From: an uncultured Phycisphaeraceae bacterium
GTDB lineage: Bacteria > Planctomycetota > Phycisphaerae > Phycisphaerales > UBA1924
Direction of reading: 5' to 3'
DNA length: 64,000 nt
Assembly (NCBI GenBank): GCA_937899905.1
Contig: CALCCF010000020.1
Location: 1 to 64,000 of the forward strand
The translations under genes were made by a program, and so were the position numbers. Shown in pieces: positions 45,486 through 58,905 of this stretch. The notes below the pieces were generated by a model that was not told the origin of the DNA, did not search any database, and saw only the letters and a program-made list of their open reading frames with translations. Each line of letters begins with the position of its first letter. The stretch's first letter is position 1.

Positions 45486-46541
45486 ATGACCAACCGCACC
45501 CTCATTGCAATGTCTGCCCTGCTCGCCGCCGCCGGCTCGTCGATCGCCCAGTCCGACGCGTTGCTGCTCATCCCCAACTCGAGCGACGACGTCGTGCTCG
45601 CGTTCGACGCGTTCGATGGTTCGCTGGTGGATGCATCGTTCATCGACCTCACCGTGCTCGATGCTGGCACGCCCAAGCAGGCCACCCCTGTGGGCGATGA
45701 GATCTGGGTCAGCGATCAGATTCGTGATCGCGTCGACCGGTTCACGCTTGACGGCGACTTCATCGGCGCGATCGGTGGGCAGGTGCCCGATGGTGGCCTC
45801 GACAACATCCGCGGCGTCAACGTCATCGGCGACGAGGTCTGGGTGTTCAACGACGGGACGAACAACGGTGCGCCGGGTGAGGCGATCGTTCGAATCGACC
45901 CCGATACCGCAACCATCATCGGCAACTACCCGCTGACCGCCTCGCCGTGGTTCGCGCTGCCCTTCGGCGGCGACAACCTCGTGAGCTACAGCGGAACGGG
46001 CGATACCCGCATCGATCGCTTCGATGACGCGGGCGTGTTGCAGGGCCCGTTCCTTGGAACGGGTGAGCTGAACTTCATCCAGCAGCTGAATCAGACATCA
46101 AGCGGCACTGTTCTCGCGGCGGCGTTCTCCACGCAGAGCGCCTCCGGTCGTGCACCGGGTGTGTACGAGCTCAACACGTCGGGAGAGATCATCGGCGTCG
46201 TGTCTGGGACCGAGTCCTCGGGCCCGCGCGCCGCGTGGGAACTGGGCAATGGCAACATCATGTGGACCAACGGCGGCGGCGTGAACATCACCGACGTTTC
46301 CACGGGCATCGCCACCGAGGTGTTCGACGGCAGCTCGCAGTTCATCAGCCTGCTGGGCGACACCAGCACCCCTTGCTTCGCCGACTTCGACGGCGACGGC
46401 GACCTGACCATCTTCGACTTCCTGGCGTTCCAGAACGCGTTCGACGCGGGCGATGCCGCGGCCGATTGCGATGGCGACGGCAGCCTGACGCTGTTCGACT
46501 TCCTCTGCTTCCAGAATGAATTCGACGCCGGCTGCGACTAA
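45486..46541 (+). CDS. Secreted propeller-like protein with GC-type dockerin
   Basis: 351 residues. Signal peptide (MTNRTLIAMSALLAAAGSSIAQ), then about 270 residues of NHL/beta-propeller-like sequence (VLAFDAFDGSLVDASF, VDRFTLDGDFIGAIGG, RIDRFDDAGVLQGPF). Residues about 294-351 are a dockerin with two calcium-loop repeats (DFDGDGDLTIFDFLAFQNAF and DCDGDGSLTLFDFLCFQ), framed by a Cys before the first loop and GCD at the very end. GAGGAG precedes ATG 45486. Terminated by a clear hairpin. Likely a cell-surface protein; ligand unknown. Confidence 0.82.
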   Translation: MTNRTLIAMSALLAAAGSSIAQSDALLLIPNSSDDVVLAFDAFDGSLVDASFIDLTVLDAGTPKQATPVGDEIWVSDQIRDRVDRFTLDGDFIGAIGGQVPDGGLDNIRGVNVIGDEVWVFNDGTNNGAPGEAIVRIDPDTATIIGNYPLTASPWFALPFGGDNLVSYSGTGDTRIDRFDDAGVLQGPFLGTGELNFIQQLNQTSSGTVLAAAFSTQSASGRAPGVYELNTSGEIIGVVSGTESSGPRAAWELGNGNIMWTNGGGVNITDVSTGIATEVFDGSSQFISLLGDTSTPCFADFDGDGDLTIFDFLAFQNAFDAGDAAADCDGDGSLTLFDFLCFQNEFDAGCD

Positions 46542-47270: not shown

Positions 47271-49007
47271 TTAGAGCTCTTCTTCGAGCGCTCGCCGATA
47301 CCGGTCGAGCACCGCCGCACGAGTAATGAGGCCAAGCGGGCGGCGGTGGCCGGTGAGGTCCGGCGGGCCGAGCAACGGCAGGCTGGCGATCTCGTCATCC
47401 TCGAATCGCTCGAGCGCGATATCGAGCGTGTCCGTTGTCAGAACGGCGGGAAGGTCGTCACGCATCAGCTCGGCGACGAGCAAGAGCGGGATGGCCTCGC
47501 GATCGATGAGCGCCGTTCGCATGTCGCGGCCGGTGACCATGCCGATGAAGTCGCCCTGCGTGTCCACGACCACGAAGTCGGGCACATGGCTATGGGCATG
47601 CAGCGTGATGAGCTTGCTGAGCGGGTCGCTGGGATAGACAGGCTCGGGTGGCAGCGGCACAACAGGGACGCTCGTGGCCGAGATCTTGCGCAATATCGCG
47701 AGGTCGCCGGTTCGACCGATGCGCAGGCCGGCCTTGCGCAGCGGGTGCGTGTAGATGTTGTCGCGGTCGAGGGCTTGGGCGACTAGCGTGGCGATGACCG
47801 CCGCGAGCATGATCGGCAGCAGCACGTACGGATCGCGCGTGAGCTCGAAAAGCATGAGGATCGCCGTCAGCGTCGCGTGCGTGCTTCCCGCGATCACCGC
47901 AGCCATGCCCACCAGCGCGTACGCGGCCGGCGAGCCATTCTCGGGCAACAAGCCGAGGCGTTGGAGCGTGATGCCCAGGGCGGCTCCGCCTGCGGCACCG
48001 ATGAACAGGCTGGGCGCGAACACACCCCCGCTGCCGCCGCTGGCAAGCGTCACGCTCGTGGCCACGGCCTTGAAGAGCACGAGCAACGCGATGAGCCAAA
48101 TGGCCAGCGGCAACGCCGCCTCGGGGTGCTTCTGTGCACCGAACGCGGCGTCGTAGCTGGCCGGGTCGAGCAACCAGCGGATGGACTCGTAGCCGTTGCT
48201 GAAGAAGCTGGGGATCGTGCTCGCCTCGTTGCCACTACCACCTGCGGCCCGCACGAGGAGGATCCATCCGACGCCCAGCGCGCCCAGGAGCACGCCGCCG
48301 GTGATCGGCGCCACCAGCCAGTGCAGCTTGAGCCTCGCGTACCCGGCCTCGAACGCGTGCAGCATCCGATTGAACCCGACGGCAAGCAGGCCGCAAAGCA
48401 GCCCGAGCACGACGTAGTTTGGCAGCTCCCAGCCCGTGAACTGGACCTTCTGCAGCGCCTCGCTGGCGGCGAAGATGGCCTCGTTCTCGCCGGTGAAGAT
48501 ATGCGTCACCGCCGCGGCGAACACGGCCGATACGACGATGGGTGTGAAGGTCTTGAGCGAAAAATCTCGCAGCAGGATCTCCAGTGCGAAGAACACACCG
48601 GCGATGGGCGCGTTGAAGATCGCGCTAATGCCGGCCGCGGCGCCGCAGCCGACCAGCGTCATCATCTGGTCGCGGTTCACACCCAGCCGCTGGGCGACCA
48701 CCGAACCGGCTGTGGCTCCGATCTGGACGATCGGGCCCTCGGTACCCGCCGAACCACCGCTGGCGACCGTCGCGATGCTTGCGGCGACCTTTGTGAGCCC
48801 AACCCGCGCGGGGATGTGCCCGCCCTTCTCGATCAGCGCCCGCATGACCTGGGGCACGCCGTGGCCGCGGGCGTCGCTGGCGAAGAGCCGCACGAGCACG
48901 CTCGTCAGCATGAGGCCGATGACCGGCCCAAGAAACAACAGCGAGCTGGACATCGCGGACGAAGTACTCGACCTCATGCAACGCCCAGGCAAAGCCCAGC
49001 GTGCCAA
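47271..49007 (-). CDS. ClC-family chloride channel/transporter with CBS domains (main part, frameshifted gene)
   Basis: ClC membrane domain with the three selectivity elements: GHGVP, GGSAGTEGPIVQIGA (gating Glu in GTEGP) and GSGGVFAPSLFIG. About ten membrane helices are visible. The last 140 residues are a CBS pair (VPDFVVVDTQGDFIGMVTGR and IASLPLLGPPDL) that usually senses nucleotides. The first 25 codons of this frame (to about 48940) look like filler; the natural N-terminus lies in another frame, from ATG 49116, joined by a +1 shift. The full protein would be about 618 residues. Convergent with the SnoaL-like gene. Confidence 0.85.
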   Translation of the reverse strand: MARWALPGRCMRSSTSSAMSSSLLFLGPVIGLMLTSVLVRLFASDARGHGVPQVMRALIEKGGHIPARVGLTKVAASIATVASGGSAGTEGPIVQIGATAGSVVAQRLGVNRDQMMTLVGCGAAAGISAIFNAPIAGVFFALEILLRDFSLKTFTPIVVSAVFAAAVTHIFTGENEAIFAASEALQKVQFTGWELPNYVVLGLLCGLLAVGFNRMLHAFEAGYARLKLHWLVAPITGGVLLGALGVGWILLVRAAGGSGNEASTIPSFFSNGYESIRWLLDPASYDAAFGAQKHPEAALPLAIWLIALLVLFKAVATSVTLASGGSGGVFAPSLFIGAAGGAALGITLQRLGLLPENGSPAAYALVGMAAVIAGSTHATLTAILMLFELTRDPYVLLPIMLAAVIATLVAQALDRDNIYTHPLRKAGLRIGRTGDLAILRKISATSVPVVPLPPEPVYPSDPLSKLITLHAHSHVPDFVVVDTQGDFIGMVTGRDMRTALIDREAIPLLLVAELMRDDLPAVLTTDTLDIALERFEDDEIASLPLLGPPDLTGHRRPLGLITRAAVLDRYRRALEEEL

Positions 49008-49116
49008 GGCCGGTCAGTGCCCCCACGCCCGCGCCGGCGGCCAGCATGAACCAGTCCTTGCGTAGCCGCAGCCGCGAGGTCAGCGTGGAGGCGATATCGG
49101 AAGGGCTTTGGGCCAT
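48951..49116 (-). CDS. N-terminal part of the ClC protein (other frame)
   Basis: ATG 49116 opens a frame with a typical ClC beginning: a hydrophilic start, RLRLRKDWFMLAAGAGVGAL and TGLGTLGFAWALHEVEYFV. Past about 48950 the frame becomes Arg-rich filler, while the +1 frame continues with SLLFLGPVIGLMLTSVLVRL. So about 55 residues of the N-terminus are separated from the channel by one nucleotide. TATATT lies 10 nt before the ATG. Mutation, assembly error or recoding are all possible. Confidence 0.65.
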
Positions 49117-49301
49117 GGGAATCGTCAATATAGCGGGGCTGGGATGCCAGGGGGCCTCATTCCGACCCCAAGAGCGTGGCCACGCCCCAGATCCTGGCCC
49201 CTGGCGGATCGCATCTGGTAACGATGCCGCCTCGAAGTCCTCTTTATCGCCCGCGGACAGGGGAGTTCGCGAGCGGCAAACCACCCTCGGGGATGTCAAA
49301 C

Positions 49302-50705
49302 ATGACCAACGGACGCAACACTTCGATCGGCCTGCTCGCGCTCACCACGTGCGCGGGCATCGCAGTCGCACAAGACACCTATCGCCAGATCCAGGACCTC
49401 GAGTCGCCCGCGCCCGCCGTCGGCGATGCGTTCGGAACCGCGGTCGGGCTCTTCGGTGAAGACGCCGCGGTCGCCACGTTCCTGAGCGAGACCGTGTACA
49501 CCTATGAGAGCGGCCCAGATGGGCAGCTCGTACCCCTGGACACCCTCACCGTGCCCGATCCTGGAGCGTTCGGCGAGTCACTTTCGATCGGTGGCGAGTT
49601 CCTCGTCGTCGGCGCACCGGCGACGGACATCACCGACTTCAACCAGGGCGTCGTGTACGTCTACCAACGCACCTCGGGCGGATGGCGCGATCGGGGCTGG
49701 CTGACTTCGAGCGACGTGCAGCAGCTCGATAACTTCGGCACGGATGTCGACCTCACCGACGACGGCGAGTACTTCATCGTCGGTGCGAAGTTCGACGACG
49801 ATGCGGGCACGAGTAGCGGCGGTGTCTACATCTTCGAGCGCAGCGGCTCGTTCTTCTTCGAGGACCAGAAGCTCGTGCCGAGCACGCTCCAGCAGGGCGA
49901 TCAGCTCGGTCGGGCGGTCGCGATAGACGGTGACATCGCGGTCGTCGGCGCCCCATTCGCCACGCGTCGCGGTGATCGAGTCTTTGAGGGCCGCGTGTGG
50001 GTTTATCGCCGAGAAGGCTCGGGCTGGGTCGAGGCCGCCGAGCTCTCGGTTGACGTGCCCGGACGCGACCTGTACTACGGCGTCTCGGTCGATGTGAAGC
50101 ACGGGTGGATCGCCGTGGGCACCGGGCGCGCCCGCGCATTCGTGTACCGGCCCGAGGGCGACGGTTGGGTGCAGGACGCCGCCGTGCAGCCCGACCCAGG
50201 CGGTTCGGGACAATTCGGCACGCAGGTCCACCTTGATCTCTCGGCGGCCAGCGCGGGCGAGGGCGTACGCCTCATCGTCGGCGACCAGACCGCGAGCTTC
50301 GACGGGCTGTTCGAGCTCGGCGCGGTGTACGTGTTCGAGCGTGAGCTCGGCCTGAGCGGCGAGATCCTGTGGCCACAGACCCAGCGGCTGGGCATTGAGC
50401 GGCCCGACACGAGCGACCGTCTGGGCCTGGGCCTCGCCGTCGACGATGGTCGCGTGCTGGCCGGCGCCCGATTCCGCGACGTGGATGGGCTCTCGAGCGC
50501 CGGCACCGCGTTCGTGTTCGAGTCTGGGCAGGCAGGCTGCCGGGTCGACTTCGACGGCGACGATGAGCTGACGATCTTCGACTTCCTGGCCTTCCAGACG
50601 GCCTTCGACGCCGGCGATACCGCGGCCGACTTCGATGGCGACGGCCGGCTGACCATCTTCGACTTCCTGGGGTTCCAGAGCGAGTTCGACGAAGGCTGCG
50701 AGTAG
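49302..50705 (+). CDS. Secreted FG-GAP-like propeller protein with GC-type dockerin
   Basis: 467 residues. Signal peptide (NTSIGLLALTTCAGIAVAQ), then repeats of the form GDAFGTAVGLFGEDAAVAT, FGTDVDLTDDGEYFIVGAKF and GDQLGRAVAIDGDIAVVGAP, the FG-GAP beta-propeller pattern. Residues about 410-467 are the dockerin (DFDGDDELTIFDFLAFQTAF and DFDGDGRLTIFDFLGFQ), framed by GCR before and GCE at the end. Part of the dockerin DNA (50565-50670) is identical to that of the gene at 52235. ATG 49302 has GGGGAT upstream; ATG 49293 is possible. Confidence 0.82.
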   Translation: MTNGRNTSIGLLALTTCAGIAVAQDTYRQIQDLESPAPAVGDAFGTAVGLFGEDAAVATFLSETVYTYESGPDGQLVPLDTLTVPDPGAFGESLSIGGEFLVVGAPATDITDFNQGVVYVYQRTSGGWRDRGWLTSSDVQQLDNFGTDVDLTDDGEYFIVGAKFDDDAGTSSGGVYIFERSGSFFFEDQKLVPSTLQQGDQLGRAVAIDGDIAVVGAPFATRRGDRVFEGRVWVYRREGSGWVEAAELSVDVPGRDLYYGVSVDVKHGWIAVGTGRARAFVYRPEGDGWVQDAAVQPDPGGSGQFGTQVHLDLSAASAGEGVRLIVGDQTASFDGLFELGAVYVFERELGLSGEILWPQTQRLGIERPDTSDRLGLGLAVDDGRVLAGARFRDVDGLSSAGTAFVFESGQAGCRVDFDGDDELTIFDFLAFQTAFDAGDTAADFDGDGRLTIFDFLGFQSEFDEGCE

Positions 50706-50733
50706 GCTCCTCAGAGCACGTGCGCAGTCGCTC

Positions 50734-52017
50734 TCAACGCCGATCGAGTGGCATCCACACGCGATATTGCATGCCTGGGAGTGGATACTCCATCGAAATG
50801 CGGTACGCACGAAACTCGTGGATTGTGGTATCGAGCTTCTGAAGCCCAAAGCCGACAAAGTCCCGTACGCGTGGCACAAGCGGGCTGGCGAGCGCTTCCA
50901 TACCCGGACCTAATCGTCGCAACTCGGCCGAGGAGGCGATCGGGTCGTACTCGCTGAACAACGGCTTGCCATCAGGCGAATGCGCGATTCTAGGTGGAGG
51001 TGGCGCCTCGCCATACAACCGGGTCGTGAGCTCGGGCTCGCCCGTGACGAACATGGACTTATGGACCAAGAGATCCATCACGAGCGCGCGAGTCGGCTTG
51101 CGAAGTGCCATCGCAAAGTGCTCGTACTCCAGTTCGTCCGTGGCATACCTCGGGCATATCCCACGAACGCGCAACGCGGTCGCAACATCGACCGGCTCAC
51201 CAAGATCAGGTGAAGCGCTCCCGATCGCGAACATCCAGCCGCGTCCACGTGGCATGACATCAAAGTTGGGCAAGGGATCACTGCTGAATTCGCGCACGAC
51301 CGCCTTCAGAGGATCGTCATCGTACGGCTCTCCGTCAAGCGTTGACATTGTGAGACCCGGGTAGTCGTTGGCAACCGACGGCAGTCCCGATACGATGTGT
51401 CGCGAACCAAGGCGAAGACGCCTGAACCCCAGACGCATTGCGAGCGTGATGGAGTCGCACCAGCCGTCGTTTTGGCCTGGCATATAGATCTCGCACTCGT
51501 ACGCCGCCTCTAGCGAAGTACCCGCAAGAAAGACGGCTGATCGATGTGCTGCAAGTCTTGCACGCCGCTCACCCCGCGACATTTCTTGCGGAAACCATCC
51601 TGCGAGGGTCGCCTCGAGGTCGGCCTTGCCATCGGGGAGAGCGGCAATGATCGCGTCAAGCTCGCGTGCCCGCTCCACCAGCGCGTCGCACAGCGTTGCC
51701 GCCACGCCCGCCCGGCGCGCGGATCGGGCAATCATCGAGAGGCCTTGGGCCCCCGGCAGCACCAGCAGGGCTGCGAGCGGGTCCTCCGTTTGGGCAGCCC
51801 GTATCGCCTTGCTGGCGAGAGACTTATCCAGTTTCAGCCGAGCAGTCAGTGCGGTGGAGCGCCCAGCGTGCCCCGCCAGGCTCTCGGCCTGTTCGAGCAA
51901 CTGACGCAGGACCTGTACAACGGCCGCCGCACCCTGAGACAGGCCGCCGATGAAATGGCTGTCGCCCGTCTCCAAGGGCCTCGATGTGGGGGCAGTCTTC
52001 GCGGTCCGAACGGTCAT
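50734..52017 (-). CDS. Hypothetical cytoplasmic protein with possible HTH-like N-terminal segment
   Basis: 427 residues, no signal peptide or membrane helix. Residues about 60-95 (ARLKLDKSLASKAIRAAQ then PLAALLVLPGAQGL) resemble a helical region I recall from planctomycete-restricted proteins, possibly helix-turn-helix-like; the other 330 residues are unassigned. ATG 52017 has TATGAT ending 5 nt upstream, one of the best leaderless-type promoters here. It lies convergent to one dockerin gene and divergent from another. Function unknown. Confidence 0.6.
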   Translation of the reverse strand: MTVRTAKTAPTSRPLETGDSHFIGGLSQGAAAVVQVLRQLLEQAESLAGHAGRSTALTARLKLDKSLASKAIRAAQTEDPLAALLVLPGAQGLSMIARSARRAGVAATLCDALVERARELDAIIAALPDGKADLEATLAGWFPQEMSRGERRARLAAHRSAVFLAGTSLEAAYECEIYMPGQNDGWCDSITLAMRLGFRRLRLGSRHIVSGLPSVANDYPGLTMSTLDGEPYDDDPLKAVVREFSSDPLPNFDVMPRGRGWMFAIGSASPDLGEPVDVATALRVRGICPRYATDELEYEHFAMALRKPTRALVMDLLVHKSMFVTGEPELTTRLYGEAPPPPRIAHSPDGKPLFSEYDPIASSAELRRLGPGMEALASPLVPRVRDFVGFGLQKLDTTIHEFRAYRISMEYPLPGMQYRVWMPLDRR

Positions 52018-52022
52018 CAGTC

Positions 52023-52028
52023 ATCATA
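52023..52028 (-). promoter_or_regulatory. -10-like TATGAT, 5 nt before ATG 52017
   Basis: Five of six matches to TATAAT; precedes the 427-residue hypothetical gene. Confidence 0.5.
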
Positions 52029-52073
52029 CGATGGGGACTGCAGGACCGTTGCAGAGTACTCTTTGAAAGATCT

Positions 52074-52101
52074 TTGAGAGAATTGCATCCGCCGCTACAC
52101 T
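52074..52101 (+). promoter_or_regulatory. Proposed promoter of the HAF-repeat dockerin gene
   Basis: TTGAGA (52074-52079), a 16-nt spacer, TACACT (52096-52101), then 133 nt to the ATG at 52235. Same -35 hexamer and spacing as upstream of the dockerin gene at 45486. Confidence 0.45.
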
Positions 52102-52234
52102 CTTTGCGAAAAAGGATCGAGCAACACGACCCAAGCCACCAGGCCGCGCACCGCCGCTCGACCGGATCCGCGACTCGTGAATGCGGATTCGAACCCCCGC
52201 CCAGCGGGCGGCCCAATCAATCAAGGAGATCAGA

Positions 52235-53506
52235 ATGACCCCTACATTCCAACCACGAATCGTGGTTGCCGCCAGCTTGGCCCTCCCCGTTGCCGCAATG
52301 GCGCAAGACGCTCGCTTCTTCGCGCTCGGCAACGTTGATGGCGAGCCAGGATGTAATGACAATGGGTGCTATCTCAGCGATGCCCCGCGAGTCAGCGCCG
52401 ATGGCCGAGTGGTGTATGGCGCCAGCTTCATCGAGGGATTCTGGTCTGCGGTGCCGAATGTGCCATTTCGATGGACAATCGGTGCCGGAATCGAGGCCAT
52501 CGGTCCCGAGTTCGGTCCGGGGCGACTAATCCAATCGGTGAACTCCGATGGCTCGCGAGTGCTTGGACAGACGTGGCAGTGGACGGCAATCGACGGCTTC
52601 GAGGACATTTCTGCAAGACTGCCGGCCTTTGGGACGGGAATCGTCGGCGCATCCGCCGACACCGGCACAGTGGTGTACCTCGAAGGCCTCATTGTCGATG
52701 AGCGCCCGTTTGTGCTCGAGCTCGACTCAAGCGATCCCCCTCGGGAACTCATCACTCCCGATATCGGACAGGAGCGTACGGGCCTGGACTTCGCGGTCAG
52801 CCGCGATGGCTCTACCGTGGGCGGCCGACTCGAACTTCCCGACTTCAAGGCCACACCCGCGATCTGGCCTCTTGATGGCGACTTCTTCCTTCCCGGAGAC
52901 CTTGACCCGGGCGAGCGTTCGGGCGGAGTTGTAGACTTCTCCGACGATGGCTCCGTGGCAGTCGGATTCAGCCGTCAGAGCGGCTTCGGCTGGGCTGGAT
53001 TCCGCTGGACTGCCGACACGGGCATCGTGTCTCTGGCCGAAACCAGCGACCAGGAGACTTTTAGCCCGGCGCGTGCCGTGAACGCTGATGGCTCGATCAT
53101 CGTCGGCCAGACACGCACGTTCGGCACCGGGAGCGGCGATGCGTACCTGTGGACTGAGGACCTTGGCCTCACGATCCTGCAAGACTATCTCATCGCGGAG
53201 TTCGGCCTTGGTTCCGATCTTGCGGGGTGGTCGCTCGAAGAAGCTACTGATGTATCGGCCGATGGACGCGTCATTGTCGGCAACGGCTTAAACCCAGACG
53301 GAATCCTCGAGGCATGGGTCGTTGTACTGCCAGGCTCATGCCGCGCCGACTTCGACGGCGACGGCGAGCTGACGATCTTCGACTTCCTGGCCTTCCAGAC
53401 GGCCTTCGACGCCGGCGATACCGCGGCCGACTTCGATGGCGACGGCCGGCTGACCATCTTCGACTTCCTGGCCTTCCAGAGCGAGTTCGACGAGGGCTGT
53501 GTCTAG
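52235..53506 (+). CDS. Secreted HAF-repeat protein with GC-type dockerin
   Basis: 423 residues. Signal peptide (RIVVAASLALPVAAMAQ). Repeats such as APRVSADGRVVYGASF, FSDDGSVAVGFSRQSG, AVNADGSIIVGQT and ATDVSADGRVIVGNG with FRWTADTGIVSL are the HAF-type extracellular repeat. Residues about 366-423 are the dockerin (DFDGDGELTIFDFLAFQTAF and DFDGDGRLTIFDFLAFQ) framed by SCR and GCV. AAGGAG precedes ATG 52235. Its dockerin shares 106 identical nucleotides with that of the gene at 49302, while the rest of the protein is unrelated. Confidence 0.82.
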   Translation: MTPTFQPRIVVAASLALPVAAMAQDARFFALGNVDGEPGCNDNGCYLSDAPRVSADGRVVYGASFIEGFWSAVPNVPFRWTIGAGIEAIGPEFGPGRLIQSVNSDGSRVLGQTWQWTAIDGFEDISARLPAFGTGIVGASADTGTVVYLEGLIVDERPFVLELDSSDPPRELITPDIGQERTGLDFAVSRDGSTVGGRLELPDFKATPAIWPLDGDFFLPGDLDPGERSGGVVDFSDDGSVAVGFSRQSGFGWAGFRWTADTGIVSLAETSDQETFSPARAVNADGSIIVGQTRTFGTGSGDAYLWTEDLGLTILQDYLIAEFGLGSDLAGWSLEEATDVSADGRVIVGNGLNPDGILEAWVVVLPGSCRADFDGDGELTIFDFLAFQTAFDAGDTAADFDGDGRLTIFDFLAFQSEFDEGCV

Positions 53507-53731
53507 CCACAGACGATCTTGACAATCGATCGCGTACTTGAGTACCGCTCGGTGGGCAGCACGCTCGCCGAGCGATTCGCGTTCTGGACTCTCGTCCTGA
53601 TCGCTCGAGCACGACCGACATGCACGATTCGTGCTCGAAGCGGCTGGAGCGCACGAGTCGCCGCAACTGCCGACTCGTGGATGCTTATCGCCTGGGTACG
53701 AGTACACGCCCCGGAATCCCAGGAGGCCGAC

Positions 53732-54733
53732 ATGACCAAGCGCCCAGCCCGTTGCACTTACTTACAATCCGTCCCGGTGATTGCCGCGCTCGCCGTCGCT
53801 TGTACAACGGCAACGGCCCAGCGCGGCTTAGTCTTCTCGGGGGGGTGCGGTTCGAGGTTCGCGACCGATCGCCTGTACGAGGTCGATCTGCGGACCGGGA
53901 CCATGACCGACCTGGGCGAATGGGTCGAGTGCGACGTCGAGGCGCTCGAATTCGTCGGCGATCGGCTCATCGCGTCCAGTGAGACCTCGGCGGCGACACC
54001 TGGCGGCTTCTTCGACTTTTCGGAGTCTCCGGGCGTCCCGATCGGCTCGCCCGCCAGACGCAGCGGCGTCGATCACGACCTGGCCGTCGACCCGACGACG
54101 GGCATCCTGTACGCGTTGCACGGTGCCGAACTCTCCGATCCGTCGGCATCCTGGCTGTACACCATCTCGCTGGATACGTGGCTGCCGTCGCTGTTGGGCA
54201 GCGACCGCTCGGCGTTCGCGGACAGCATCGCCATCAACCGCCGCGGCGAGGCGTACGCGGTCGATTCGGTGTTCCTGCAGCGGCTGTACGCGGTCGATCT
54301 CCAGACGGGCGACCTGTCGCTGATCGCCCCGATGGACATCCCCTTCTGCTGCGGCGTGACCGGCCTGAACGCGGCGATCGACTTCGACGACCAGGACGAC
54401 GACCTGCTGTGGATGGTCATTGGGGGCTTCGGCTCAAACTTCAGCCGCGTGTTCACGATCGACGTTACGACCGGCGAGACCACGTTCATCGCCAACCTCG
54501 ACCCGGTGCTGCCGGGCCGCAACGGCTTCGACGTCGACTCGCTGGCGATCATCCCCACGCCGCCGTGCGTGGCGGACTTCGACCGCGACGGCTCGCTGAC
54601 GGTGTTCGACTTCCTGGCCTTCCAGACCGCCTTCGACGCGGGCATCACCTCGGCAGACCTCGACGAAGACGGCCAACTGACCATTTTCGACTTCCTGGCG
54701 TTCCAGACGGCCTTCGACGCGGGATGCCCGTAG
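53732..54733 (+). CDS. Secreted propeller-like protein with GC-type dockerin
   Basis: 333 residues. Signal peptide (YLQSVPVIAALAVACTTATA), then a WD40/NHL-like body (RLYEVDLRTGTMTDLGEW, DLAVDPTTGILYALHG, RLYAVDLQTGDLSLIAP, RVFTIDVTTGETTFIANL). Residues about 277-333 are the dockerin (DFDRDGSLTVFDFLAFQTAF and DLDEDGQLTIFDFLAFQ) framed by PCV and GCP. AGGAGG is 5 nt before ATG 53732; a longer frame from 53519 lacks a signal peptide. Ends at a strong terminator. Confidence 0.8.
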   Translation: MTKRPARCTYLQSVPVIAALAVACTTATAQRGLVFSGGCGSRFATDRLYEVDLRTGTMTDLGEWVECDVEALEFVGDRLIASSETSAATPGGFFDFSESPGVPIGSPARRSGVDHDLAVDPTTGILYALHGAELSDPSASWLYTISLDTWLPSLLGSDRSAFADSIAINRRGEAYAVDSVFLQRLYAVDLQTGDLSLIAPMDIPFCCGVTGLNAAIDFDDQDDDLLWMVIGGFGSNFSRVFTIDVTTGETTFIANLDPVLPGRNGFDVDSLAIIPTPPCVADFDRDGSLTVFDFLAFQTAFDAGITSADLDEDGQLTIFDFLAFQTAFDAGCP

Positions 54734-54774
54734 CGGCAGCCGGCCGACACCGTGGGCCAGAAGCACTAGACTGG

Positions 54775-54807
54775 CACGCTGCGTGGCGCTCACGCGGCGT
54801 GTTTTTT
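54775..54807 (+). terminator. Strong terminator after the dockerin gene
   Basis: An 11-pair stem with one G-U (CACGCTGCGTG 54775-54785 with CACGCGGCGTG 54791-54801), 5-nt loop, followed by TTTTTT. Confidence 0.9.
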
Positions 54808-54861
54808 GTTGTTTCTGACCCGCCAGCGATCCGAACCGCCAGACCGCCTTGAAGGACCCCC

Positions 54862-56271
54862 ATGGCCGACCACCCGACCAGCCCCCACTACCCAATCGAC
54901 GAGACCCACGACCCGAGCCTGGAGAGCTGGGTCGAGAGCGCCAACGACCCGGGGACGGACTTTCCGATCCAGAATCTGCCGCTGTGTCGCTTCGCACCGC
55001 CCGGCGAGTGGGGCTTGTCCGACCATCTCGGCGTCAGGATCGGCGATCACGTTCTTGATCTGTCCGATGTCGCCTACACGGTCGCGATCCACTCGGACTC
55101 TGGCGGGCCAGCCGAAGCCGAGATCTACGAGGGCGAGAACGAATCACAACTCCTCGAAGAGTGGTCGGGGCCATTGGGCCGCAGGATTCGCAAGCGTGTC
55201 CAAGAGCTGCTTGGTACGTCGATCGATGCCGAGACTCGCAAGAAGCTTGAGTCTCATCTTCACGACGCATCGGAGTGTGAGTTCGCGCCTCCGGCGACCA
55301 TCCACGACTATACCGACTTCTACGCCTCCCTCTACCACGCCACCAGCGTCGGCAGCATGTTCCGCCCCGACAACCCGCTGCTGCCCAACTACAAGCACAT
55401 CCCCATCGGCTACCACGGCCGGGCGTCGAGCGTCGTCGCCAGCGGCACCGATATCCGCCGGCCCGTCGGCCAGCAAGCGCCAGCCGAAGACGGTGGTGCG
55501 CCGAGCTTCGGGCCTTGCAAGCTGTTCGACTACGAGCTGGAAATGGGCTTCGTCGTCGGCCGCGGCAACGAGCTCGGCGAGACGATCGACATCGCCGACG
55601 CCGAGAAGCACATGCTGGGGCTGTGCCTGGTCAACGACTGGTCGGCCCGCGACCTACAGAAGTGGGAGTACCAGCCGCTGGGCCCGTTCCTGGCCAAGAG
55701 CTTCGCGACGACGGTGAGCCCGTACATCGTGACGATGGAAGCGCTCGCACCATTCCGGACCGCAGCCTTCACGCGCGACGCCGGCGATCCGTCGCCGCTG
55801 CCATACCTGACCAGCGAGGCCAACAGCTCCGCTGGGGGTTTCGACATCACGCTGGAGGTCTACCTCGCCAGCGAGCAGATGCGCACGAAGGGCATGGACC
55901 CGCTGAAGATCAGCAGCGGCAACTTCAGGGACATGTACTGGACGCTCGCCCAGATGCTGACCCACCACAGCAGCAACGGCTGCAACATGCAGCCGGGTGA
56001 TTTGCTTGCATCAGGAACGGTTTCCGGTAAAGACAAGTCCAGCCGCGGCTGCCTGCTCGAGCTCACCTGGAACGGCGACGCCTTCGCCAGCCCGCCCAAA
56101 CTCGTGCCTGGCACCGACCGCACACCCATCACCCTGCCCACCGGCGAAGAACGCAAGTTCCTGGCCGACGGAGACGAGGTCATCATCAAGGGCTTCTGCG
56201 AGCGTGAGGGCTTCCGACGCATCGGCTTCGGCGAGTGCCGGGGCATCGTGACGCCCGCGCGGACGGTGTAA
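54862..56271 (+). CDS. fahA: Fumarylacetoacetase
   Basis: 469 residues. This enzyme hydrolyses 4-fumarylacetoacetate to fumarate and acetoacetate, the last step of tyrosine/homogentisate breakdown. Landmarks: RFAPPGEWGLSDHLGVRIGD, DFYASLYHATSVGSMFRP (metal and catalytic region), GRASSVVASGTDIRRPVGQ, FDYELEMGFVVGRGNELG with the calcium-site acids, and DWSARDLQKWEYQPLGPFLA. It is about 50 residues longer than the usual 420, mostly from an N-terminal extension and an insert near 80-130. No homogentisate dioxygenase gene is adjacent. AAGGA precedes ATG 54862. Confidence 0.92.
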   Translation: MADHPTSPHYPIDETHDPSLESWVESANDPGTDFPIQNLPLCRFAPPGEWGLSDHLGVRIGDHVLDLSDVAYTVAIHSDSGGPAEAEIYEGENESQLLEEWSGPLGRRIRKRVQELLGTSIDAETRKKLESHLHDASECEFAPPATIHDYTDFYASLYHATSVGSMFRPDNPLLPNYKHIPIGYHGRASSVVASGTDIRRPVGQQAPAEDGGAPSFGPCKLFDYELEMGFVVGRGNELGETIDIADAEKHMLGLCLVNDWSARDLQKWEYQPLGPFLAKSFATTVSPYIVTMEALAPFRTAAFTRDAGDPSPLPYLTSEANSSAGGFDITLEVYLASEQMRTKGMDPLKISSGNFRDMYWTLAQMLTHHSSNGCNMQPGDLLASGTVSGKDKSSRGCLLELTWNGDAFASPPKLVPGTDRTPITLPTGEERKFLADGDEVIIKGFCEREGFRRIGFGECRGIVTPARTV

Positions 56272-56439: not shown

Positions 56440-58905
56440 ATGCACATCGCCGGTTCGACGCGGATCTCTACACGCGGGACGCCAACGGCCTGCGGGCTGA
56501 TGGGCGTGGTGCTCGGCCAAATGCTCGGCCTGGGCGCGATCGCGCTCGCCGCCCATGAGGCACACGGACAGGCCTGCTCGTTCGAGCAGGAGATCATCGA
56601 ATTCGGTGGCCCGGGACTCTCGAAGACCGCGCCGGCGGCCATCTTCGACGACGGTGACGGCCCGGCCCTCTACACGGTTGCAACCTTCGAGGAGGTGATC
56701 TGCGCCTGTGATTCGCACCTGCTGCGATTCGATGGCGAGCGGTGGATCTCCGTTGGCGCGTTTGCAGCGCCCACAAGCACCACCGGGCCCGTGCTTGACA
56801 TGCAGGTGTTCGATCTGGGCGACGGTCCGGCGTTGTACATCGGCGGGCGGTTCGACCGGGCGGGCGGGGTAGCCGCGCGCAACATCGTTCGGTACGACCG
56901 GGACGGATTCAGCTCGCTTGGCATCGGCATCGGCAGCCCCGGCGGATCGGATGGCTCGGTGCATTCGCTCGAGCGCTTCGACGACGGCTCGGGGCCGGCG
57001 CTCATCGCGGGCGGCACGTTCCAGGATGCGGGCGGCGTCGCGGTCAACAACGTCGCCCGATGGGACGGCTCGGGTTGGTCCGCGCTCGGACCGGGTGTCG
57101 GCTTCACCAGCACCACCGTCACGGACTTGACGGTCTTCGACGACGGCTCGGGGCCGGCCATCTTTGCCGCGGGGCGTATCAGGCTTTCGGCCCGGGACTG
57201 GCTCGCGGCTCGCTTCGACGGCTCGAGGTGGACGCTCGTCGGACCGCCGAACTCGAGACAGTTCCAGCGCGCCGAGGCGATCGAGGTCTTCGACGACAGC
57301 ACGGGGCCGGCGGTCTACGTTGGCGGCAACTTCACGCAGGTCGGCTCGGGTGGCGACGCGTCGTTCATCGCCCGGCTCGAAGACAATGACTGGGTCGGGA
57401 TCGGTGATGGCCTGGATGGCGTGGTGACCGACCTTGTGTCGGCCGAGCAGCCCGAGGACGGCATGTATGTCGCCGGCGAGTTTGCGACGGCCTCTTCCGG
57501 TGGTGCCGCGCTCAACGGCGTGGCACTCTGGGATGGCGAACGGCTTGAGCCGCTGGCCGCCGGCTTGGATGCCGGCGTGGAACAGGTGATTGTGGGTGAC
57601 ATCGGCGCCGGGACACAGCTGATCGCCCTTGGTGACTTCGAGAGCGAGGCACAGGAAGGCGGCATCGCCACTCCGGGCATCGCCCGCTGGGATGGTGCCG
57701 CATGGGCTCCGCTCGCGACGCCCGCGCCAAGCGAGGTGCGGGCTCTGGCCGTCATCGATGGCGCCGCCGGCCCGGAGGTGTACGTCGGCGGTACGTTTAC
57801 CGCCACGCCCTTCGGACCCGCCCAGGGCATCGCCCGATTTGCAGATGGTCGATTCGAACCACTCGGAACCGCATGGTCGGGCGGCGTGAATGCCATCGAG
57901 GCGTTCGATGACGGCTCCAGCCACGCGACCTACGCGGCCGGCGCCGCCGGCACGATCAACCTTGTTGGCCGCTGGGACGGTTCGCGGTGGCTCCCCGTTG
58001 GCGATGCGTTCGACGCGCCCGTACGCGCCCTGCGTTCCTTCGAGGACACAACCGGACCGGCGCTGTTCGCGGGCGGCGAGTTCGGCCGCGTGGGATCGGC
58101 ACCAGCATCTGCCGTTGCCCGCTTCGACGGCGCCACATGGAGCGCGGTTCCGGGATTGACCGGCACGGTGCAGGCCTTGGCCGTGTTCGACGATGGATTT
58201 GGTGGAGCGCTCTACGCCGGCGGCACGCTGACGGACATTGATGGCATGGGCCCCGGCGCGGTCGCCCGCTGGGACGGCGTATCGTGGACGCGCGTGGCCG
58301 TCGACGGCGCGCCCGCGTTCGCGGGCAGCGTGCTCGACCTCGGGGTGGCCCGGATCGCCGGTGATGACGTGTTGGTGGCGGGCGGTGCGTTCGCCCGCAG
58401 CGGCACGGTTGCCGCTGAGAACATCGCGGTGTGGGACGGAGTGTCGTGGTCGTCGATCGGCTCCGGCCTGCCCGGCCGCGTGACGGCGCTCGCTCCGTTC
58501 ATCGAGGAAGGCCTCCCGCTGGCGGCAGCGTACGAGATCCCGGCGATCGGGCGCTCCACATCCAGCGTGCAAACGTGGGACGGCAGGCAGTGGCGGGAAC
58601 GGACCGGTTCGGACGGTCCGGTGCTGGCGATGGCGCGGCTGGAGAGCCCCACCGAACTTTCCACCTACTACGGCGGCGGCTTTGTCGACACCGGCTCGAT
58701 CGCGAGCGCCACGCTCGGCAGGCTCGTGTGCGGCACGTGCGAGGCGGACCTCGACGGCGACGGCATGCTCACGTTCTTCGACTTCCTCGTATTCCAGTCC
58801 CTGTTCGATCAGAGGGATCCGAGGGCCGACCTCGACGGTGACGGGAGCTTCACGATCCTCGATTTCTTGGTGTTCCAGACCTTCTTCGACGACGGCTGCC
58901 CGTAG
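56440..58905 (+). CDS. Large secreted Kelch-like repeat protein with GC-type dockerin
   Basis: 821 residues. Signal-like N-terminus with a hydrophobic stretch (MGVVLGQMLGLGAIALAAHE). The body is roughly ten imperfect repeats of about 50-60 residues with the core FDDGSGPALIAGGTF followed by VARWDGSGWSALG, as in Kelch/galactose-oxidase-like propellers. Residues about 764-821 are a divergent dockerin (DLDGDGMLTFFDFLVFQSLF and DLDGDGSFTILDFLVFQ) framed by TCE and GCP. GGGGG precedes ATG 56440. The most diverged dockerin of the five. Ligand unknown. Confidence 0.8.
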   Translation: MHIAGSTRISTRGTPTACGLMGVVLGQMLGLGAIALAAHEAHGQACSFEQEIIEFGGPGLSKTAPAAIFDDGDGPALYTVATFEEVICACDSHLLRFDGERWISVGAFAAPTSTTGPVLDMQVFDLGDGPALYIGGRFDRAGGVAARNIVRYDRDGFSSLGIGIGSPGGSDGSVHSLERFDDGSGPALIAGGTFQDAGGVAVNNVARWDGSGWSALGPGVGFTSTTVTDLTVFDDGSGPAIFAAGRIRLSARDWLAARFDGSRWTLVGPPNSRQFQRAEAIEVFDDSTGPAVYVGGNFTQVGSGGDASFIARLEDNDWVGIGDGLDGVVTDLVSAEQPEDGMYVAGEFATASSGGAALNGVALWDGERLEPLAAGLDAGVEQVIVGDIGAGTQLIALGDFESEAQEGGIATPGIARWDGAAWAPLATPAPSEVRALAVIDGAAGPEVYVGGTFTATPFGPAQGIARFADGRFEPLGTAWSGGVNAIEAFDDGSSHATYAAGAAGTINLVGRWDGSRWLPVGDAFDAPVRALRSFEDTTGPALFAGGEFGRVGSAPASAVARFDGATWSAVPGLTGTVQALAVFDDGFGGALYAGGTLTDIDGMGPGAVARWDGVSWTRVAVDGAPAFAGSVLDLGVARIAGDDVLVAGGAFARSGTVAAENIAVWDGVSWSSIGSGLPGRVTALAPFIEEGLPLAAAYEIPAIGRSTSSVQTWDGRQWRERTGSDGPVLAMARLESPTELSTYYGGGFVDTGSIASATLGRLVCGTCEADLDGDGMLTFFDFLVFQSLFDQRDPRADLDGDGSFTILDFLVFQTFFDDGCP

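Follow-up and report, generated by a model that had tools for sequence, protein, structure and literature searches.

Near-identical GC-type dockerin cassettes in unrelated neighbouring genes of an uncultured Phycisphaeraceae bacterium: probable exchange by gene conversion

GC-type dockerin cassettes and related systems

The dockerin type I domain of cellulosomes (PF00404) contains two repeats with DxDGDG loops, and a cohesin-dockerin 'planctosome' is proposed for freshwater planctomycetes (PMC6461901). The cassettes described here resemble the former in their two repeats and loops and the latter as planctomycete dockerins that lie outside cellulose degradation. They differ from both with respect to cohesins, which the planctosome model includes: no PF00963 match was found at E 0.01 in any of seven congeneric genomes, or at E 0.1 in the one searched at that cut-off, by a search that could miss a remote cohesin and with the genome under study (G000) 95% complete. 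Among 14 control genomes, PF00963 matched in two and exceeded the cut-off in one. A further difference from the cellulosome lies in the protein bodies. Those of the five dockerin genes (D1-D5) in the window, i.e. the whole 64,000-nucleotide stretch that was analysed, have Pfam matches to repeat or uncharacterised families and not to glycosidases, and two of the bodies have no match. In the domain itself, no difference was seen from the family NF041540 (dockerin_GC, 'GC-type dockerin domain-anchored protein'); the new element is the evidence that copies undergo exchange. Such exchange has its own precedents in the gene conversion and concerted evolution of neighbouring paralogs, which the present case resembles in its dependence on distance and, in one conserved pair, in a greater identity within than between species; here, however, a 162-nt domain alone is shared and the rest of the genes is unrelated. 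Both the domain family and gene conversion are already known, but a literature search with partial coverage of subscription journals returned no paper in which dockerins undergo gene conversion or evolve in concert and no use of the phrase 'GC-type dockerin'.

Domains of the NF041540 type are expected at the C-terminus, with Gly-Cys as their end. All five window genes end in this way, and all five proteins match NF041540 with 33.5 to 42.5 bits (curated cut-off, 29 bits). All 73 cassettes that were scanned (72 of the 150 listed for G000 and D5) match the family at E 0.001 or better. The first and last residues of the GC-type cassettes are cysteines. Among the 150 listed cassettes, 149 end in Cys and one in Gly-Arg; 145 are followed by a stop within five codons, and five continue into further protein. 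In three proteins that resemble one another by eye (L070:14252-16477, L070:16492-18672, and L072:1-1590, all on the minus strand), the cassette sits close to the N-terminus and not at the C-terminus, and the remaining part has a GHSRGGEG stretch that, again by eye, is like that of a hydrolase. Against PF00404, the D3 cassette alone scored 23.8 bits, 0.9 bits above the gathering threshold of 22.9 (47.6 bits for NF041540), all 73 scanned cassettes gave a PF00404 match at E up to 1, the comparison with the threshold being for the D3 cassette alone, and none of the whole window proteins matched PF00404 at E 0.001. The cassette was modelled with two helices (mean pLDDT, 96.5), and the best PDB matches of the model were dockerins, although weak ones (Foldseek E 0.74 or worse; VIA Z at most 5.2).

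The G000 genome (3.63 Mb) contains at least 150 cassettes; D5 is absent from the 150 listed, and the true number is therefore higher. The congeners G004 and G005 (genomes of 3.3-3.6 Mb) also contain at least 150 each, and NF041540 hits were obtained in 43 of the 61 genomes searched. Cassette pairs in G000 have a median identity of 0.759, and 64 of the 66 adjacent pairs less than 5 kb apart lie on the same strand.

The D2 and D3 cassettes

D2 (49302-50705, plus strand; ATG start chosen, listed ORF from 49176) has a body of FG-GAP repeats, and D3 (52235-53506, plus strand; ATG start chosen, listed ORF from 52181) has a body with a HAF-repeat hit. Their cassettes, 54 amino acids from Cys to Cys, occupy 50538-50699 and 53339-53500 on the plus strand, 2.8 kb apart; each begins at a TGC codon and finishes one codon ahead of the stop. 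The 106-nt identity between them that the first-pass annotation had reported is exact (50565-50670 and 53366-53471, plus strand; 106 of 106 positions, with a mismatch immediately flanking each end), and it represents the unbroken core of the common 162-nt cassette, of which 154 nt are identical. Of the eight differences, four fall within the first 27 nt and four within the last 29 nt. That the other three dockerins differ also proved correct: the cassettes of D1 (46374-46535), D4 (54566-54727), and D5 (58738-58899), all on the plus strand, are 82, 80, and 71% identical to that of D2, respectively. The bodies of D2 and D3 are unrelated, as had been claimed, the top BLASTP segment between them scoring 22.3 bits over 30 amino acids. 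Identity upstream of the cassettes is 0.20-0.30 over 15-60 nt, and downstream it is 0.67 in the first 6 nt, which include the stop codon, 0.37 over 30 nt, and 0.33 over 60 nt. The flanking DNA is thus at background level on either side past the stop codon.

Breakpoints common to both cassettes at the cysteine codon upstream, for which the annotation had suggested a search, were not demonstrated. Just past the right-hand mismatches, both cassettes carry the 20-nt sequence TTCCAGAGCGAGTTCGACGA, which among the 150 cassettes listed occurs in D2 and D3 only; the copied unit was therefore longer than the 106-nt run, whose ends are not its breakpoints. Three amino acids differ between the two cassettes, and each time it is D3 that carries the consensus residue and D2 that deviates, which suggests that later mutations, largely in D2, broke an identity that was probably longer at first. 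The alternative of an internal conversion tract bounded by the edge-clustered mismatches was ruled out by the presence of TTCCAGAGCGAGTTCGACGA beyond the run together with a GENECONV-like internal-tract test of all pairs, in which no G000 pair fell below 0.05 after Bonferroni correction (best, 0.14) and D2/D3 was not among the 14 rows listed. In G005, one pair did so (0.024), and its members are distant. The outcome of this tract test also weighs against gene conversion. The clustering of the D2/D3 mismatches taken alone gives p 0.0014, but the eight mismatches fall in six codons and the statistic was picked post hoc; among nine near pairs with at least 90% identity, three have a clustering p below 0.01. 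The direction of copying has no usable vertical signal, since in similarity to the cassette of the G005 D2 ortholog, D3 ranks 10th and D2 24th of the 150 listed. Ortholog cassettes are in general 0.815 identical (53 pairs) against 0.762 for random cross-species pairs, and the ortholog is the best cassette match in 11 of 53 cases.

We consider that the D2/D3 identity is probably the footprint of a recent homologous recombination within the genome, most likely non-reciprocal (gene conversion), between the two cassettes. The 150 or more copies of a cassette about 76% alike, many of them in same-strand clusters, would supply the homology; a break or stalled fork in one cassette would be repaired from a nearby copy, and the exchange would halt where homology halts, i.e. 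at the cassette ends. Short-range homologous recombination is favoured over illegitimate grafting because the shared unit ends where homology ends. We infer that both D2 and D3 had cassettes before the exchange and that the copying was a conversion of the repair type rather than another homology-driven step.

Two other origins can be weighed at the level of the locus. The first is a whole-gene tandem duplication after which one of the two bodies was replaced, as might be imagined from the several long-run neighbours with related bodies in G000 (a C40 pair, 53%; a C19 pair, 86% over 104 amino acids; and the C17 pairs). It is very unlikely for D2 and D3, whose bodies and flanks are unrelated and which are separated by a reverse-strand ORF of 427 amino acids (50734-52017, minus strand), for which neither a Pfam family at E 0.01 nor a counterpart in the syntenic G005 region was found. 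The C19 pair itself (L047; G000:C19:69409-69570 and 71686-71847) has cassettes that are identical over 164 nt and different DNA beside them, so that it represents either partial duplication or repeated exchange. The second is an assembly artefact. Assemblies from short reads are known to be mis-joined at repeats, and the G000 genome is in 113 contigs; this origin is nevertheless highly improbable, given that the two copies differ at eight sites on the same contig and that the same pattern is seen in G004 (one contig) and G005 (two contigs).

Codon constraint and physical proximity

A highly conserved domain might reach such identity through codon constraint without any copying. The cassette is indeed strongly conserved, shared residues being encoded by the same codon in about 67% of cases, and codon identity is as high as 0.94 in a few distant pairs, on fewer residues than D2/D3. 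When codons were sampled according to the usage at each position in the other cassettes, with both proteins fixed (20,000 draws), however, the mean run was 22.6 nt and the maximum 81 nt, as compared with the 106 nt observed, and codon identity reached at most 0.88, as compared with 0.94 (48 of the 51 shared residues) in D2/D3. Equal identity among pairs whose proteins are as similar, which had been named in advance as evidence against copying, was not found either: in 58 distant pairs with protein identity of at least 0.925, the longest run was 51 nt. Codon constraint alone is therefore rejected by the simulation and retains next to no plausibility, and the first reading of the identity as recent copying of the cassette is supported. 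Regional codon usage was likewise discarded as the main cause. In G000, near pairs scarcely exceed pairs on different contigs in mean codon identity (0.686 vs 0.673), and in G004 they do not exceed them (0.676 vs 0.687). In G005, near pairs lie somewhat above distant ones (0.757 vs 0.724), and there regional usage may make a small contribution. The effect is carried by a minority of the neighbour pairs.

The comparison was extended to all cassettes of three genomes, with all 150 listed cassettes of G000, 137 of the 150 of G005, and 114 of the 150 of G004 (seven of these 114 were dropped because they do not start with Cys and are probably out of register). The candidates numbered 250, 238, and 233 in G000, G005, and G004, respectively, 150 being listed per genome. 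Bodies were taken as unrelated when BLASTP gave no match at E 1e-3, with bodies cut about 1.2-1.3 kb upstream. In the all-against-all comparison of the 150 listed G000 cassettes (11,175 pairs), the five longest runs are all between neighbours on the same contig: 252 nt in a tandem duplicate, 164 nt in neighbours with partly related bodies, and then D2/D3, which ranks third of all pairs, is the only one of the five without a BLASTP match between its bodies, and has the longest run among the pairs of listed cassettes that lack such a match.

Among pairs with unrelated bodies, runs of at least 45 nt were found in 3 of 41 same-strand pairs less than 3 kb apart in G000, as compared with 23 of 10,672 others (Fisher, 1.3e-4; label permutation, 4e-4), in 4 of 30 vs 21 of 9,060 in G005 (Fisher, 1.2e-6; 0 of 20,000 permutations), and in 2 of 25 vs 7 of 5,522 in G004 (6.9e-4). 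The 3-kb and run thresholds were chosen after G000 had been seen, and G004 was tested with both fixed. With the three species pooled, cassettes at least 90% identical make up 9 of 96 such neighbour pairs and 31 of 25,254 others, a cut that was chosen last, when all three genomes were known. The effect persists when D2/D3 is left out (runs of at least 50 nt, 8 of 95 vs 17 of 25,244). None of 10 opposite-strand neighbour pairs has a run of at least 50 nt, a sample too small to conclude from. Near-identity of cassettes thus depends on physical distance in three genomes.

Resident cassettes, gene arrival, and locus turnover

One adjacent pair conserved between G004 and G005 (G4_814041/813246 and G5_C2:15616/16376) bears directly on exchange between established genes. 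Its two bodies are unrelated to each other and are 66 and 73% identical between the species. Identity between the two cassettes is 0.97 in G004 and 0.91 in G005, whereas orthologous cassettes are 0.86 and 0.86 identical and cross-paralogs 0.85 and 0.87, the shared variant being a different one in each species. This is the pattern that concerted evolution by gene conversion predicts, and it points to exchange between resident cassettes. Paralogs closer than orthologs are clear in this conserved pair and suggested in another. When all neighbours conserved at less than 5 kb in both species were considered (related bodies included; quartets with a cassette of a length other than 162 nt left out, as also in the G000-G004 set), 3 of 33 comparisons had a delta above 0.05, as compared with 20 of 3,594 others (Fisher, 0.001). 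Taken as wholes, the two distributions did not differ significantly (Mann-Whitney, p 0.12), no excess was present in the G000-G004 conserved-neighbour set (0.0019 vs 0.0037), and none was present at synonymous codons alone in 12 G000-G005 quartets (p 0.64). Most conserved neighbours are not homogenised, and this weighs against gene conversion. The largest delta (0.145) belongs to a distant G005 pair with dissimilar bodies (G5_C1:1181139 and 550186); exchange is favoured by proximity and perhaps reaches beyond it too, or some ortholog calls are wrong. The cassettes at G005:C1:1181139, 550186, and 551245, which lie up to 630 kb apart, are 0.91-0.95 identical, and their G000 counterparts are 0.81-0.88 identical; the bodies at 1181139 and 551245 are 48% alike and that at 550186 is unrelated. 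Long-range exchange among these three cassettes is possible.

The surroundings of D2 and D3 differ among species. On the left lies a ClC-type chloride channel gene (47271-49007, minus strand) and on the right a fumarylacetoacetase gene (54862-56271, plus strand), both conserved flanks of a variable interval. In G005, the order of the ClC gene, D2, a dockerin gene X, fumarylacetoacetase, S10 peptidase, and citrate synthase is kept, and the D2 ortholog adjoins the same ClC gene; the bodies of D3, D4, and D5 have no match in this syntenic region. In G004, X is present (83% identical over 430 amino acids) and D2 is absent between the same flanks. The ClC and fumarylacetoacetase genes face each other across a short interval without a cassette match in G002, G003, and G006, and in G001, where that side only was seen, the fumarylacetoacetase gene is immediately preceded by a cassette. 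The dockerin genes within the interval (49007-54862 of the window) thus vary among G000, G004, and G005 and are missing from it in G002, G003, and G006, and the interval appears to be a place where genes turn over.

For D3, the 60 related genomes gave no close relative and the G004 and G005 sets no ortholog. Its best body match in the 60 relatives is 38% identical (G037), and by eye that protein (L107) has a dockerin-like tail without cysteines; similar bodies may thus carry different types of tail in different families. Searches of genome contigs with the D2 and D3 bodies, in a set that possibly lacks their own or very near genomes, and of viral contigs with D3 gave no confirmed relative. As far as the sampling extends, D2 looks like the older resident and D3 like the newer gene, although loss elsewhere is possible.

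These observations raise the alternative that D3, or its body, arrived recently beside D2 and that its tail was copied from the D2 cassette in the same event. The missing relatives of D3 and the syntenic ortholog of D2 in G005 fit such an arrival, as does a shared unit that reaches nearly to the cassette end, and in seven of the nine unrelated-body neighbour pairs with runs of at least 45 nt in the three genomes, a member gene lacks an ortholog in the other two sets. The corresponding proportions, 7 of 46 pairs with an ortholog-less gene against 2 of 50 with orthologs for both members (one-sided Fisher, 0.06), are however not significantly different, and the two pairs with both orthologs are a single gene pair that is alike within each of two species. 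Genes whose best partner is a neighbour number 4 of 44 without and 3 of 31 with an ortholog in G000, and 8 of 40 without and 2 of 27 with one in G005, so that the comparison is not decisive as to whether genes lacking orthologs copy their neighbours more often. Non-homologous grafting should, moreover, have brought downstream DNA along, whereas identity downstream of D2 and D3 is at background. We regard this alternative as somewhat unlikely. Conversion after the arrival of D3 and copying at its arrival are not separable, since neither the G004 nor the G005 set contains a D3 ortholog. The features observed, namely the excess over codon constraint, the restriction to the cassette, the dependence on proximity in three species, and one pair with a species-specific shared cassette, support homologous recombination, most likely gene conversion, as the process. 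For D2 and D3, such copying may also, as the first-pass annotation suggested, have been a means of passing the tail on to a new protein, since D3 lacks a close relative among the 60 relatives.

A wider and more doubtful proposal is that the cassettes serve as homology handles for gene turnover. New genes for secreted proteins would enter same-strand clusters by recombination at a resident cassette and so gain a neighbour-like tail, and deletions between cassettes would remove bodies but spare an in-frame tail. One landing site would then be the interval flanked by the ClC and fumarylacetoacetase genes. We consider it unlikely.

Among unrelated genes that lie close together, a tag common to many proteins appears to undergo local homogenisation. 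If the tag of at least 150 mostly unrelated proteins is homogenised in this way, its sequence can reflect the neighbours of a gene more than the history of that gene, and similarity between cassettes is therefore not to be read as shared specificity or descent. The pairs described here would also provide natural cases of short-tract recombination in this bacterial group, in which exact runs of about 50-160 nt stand out from a background identity of about 76%, as well as a testable way in which a protein tag might spread.
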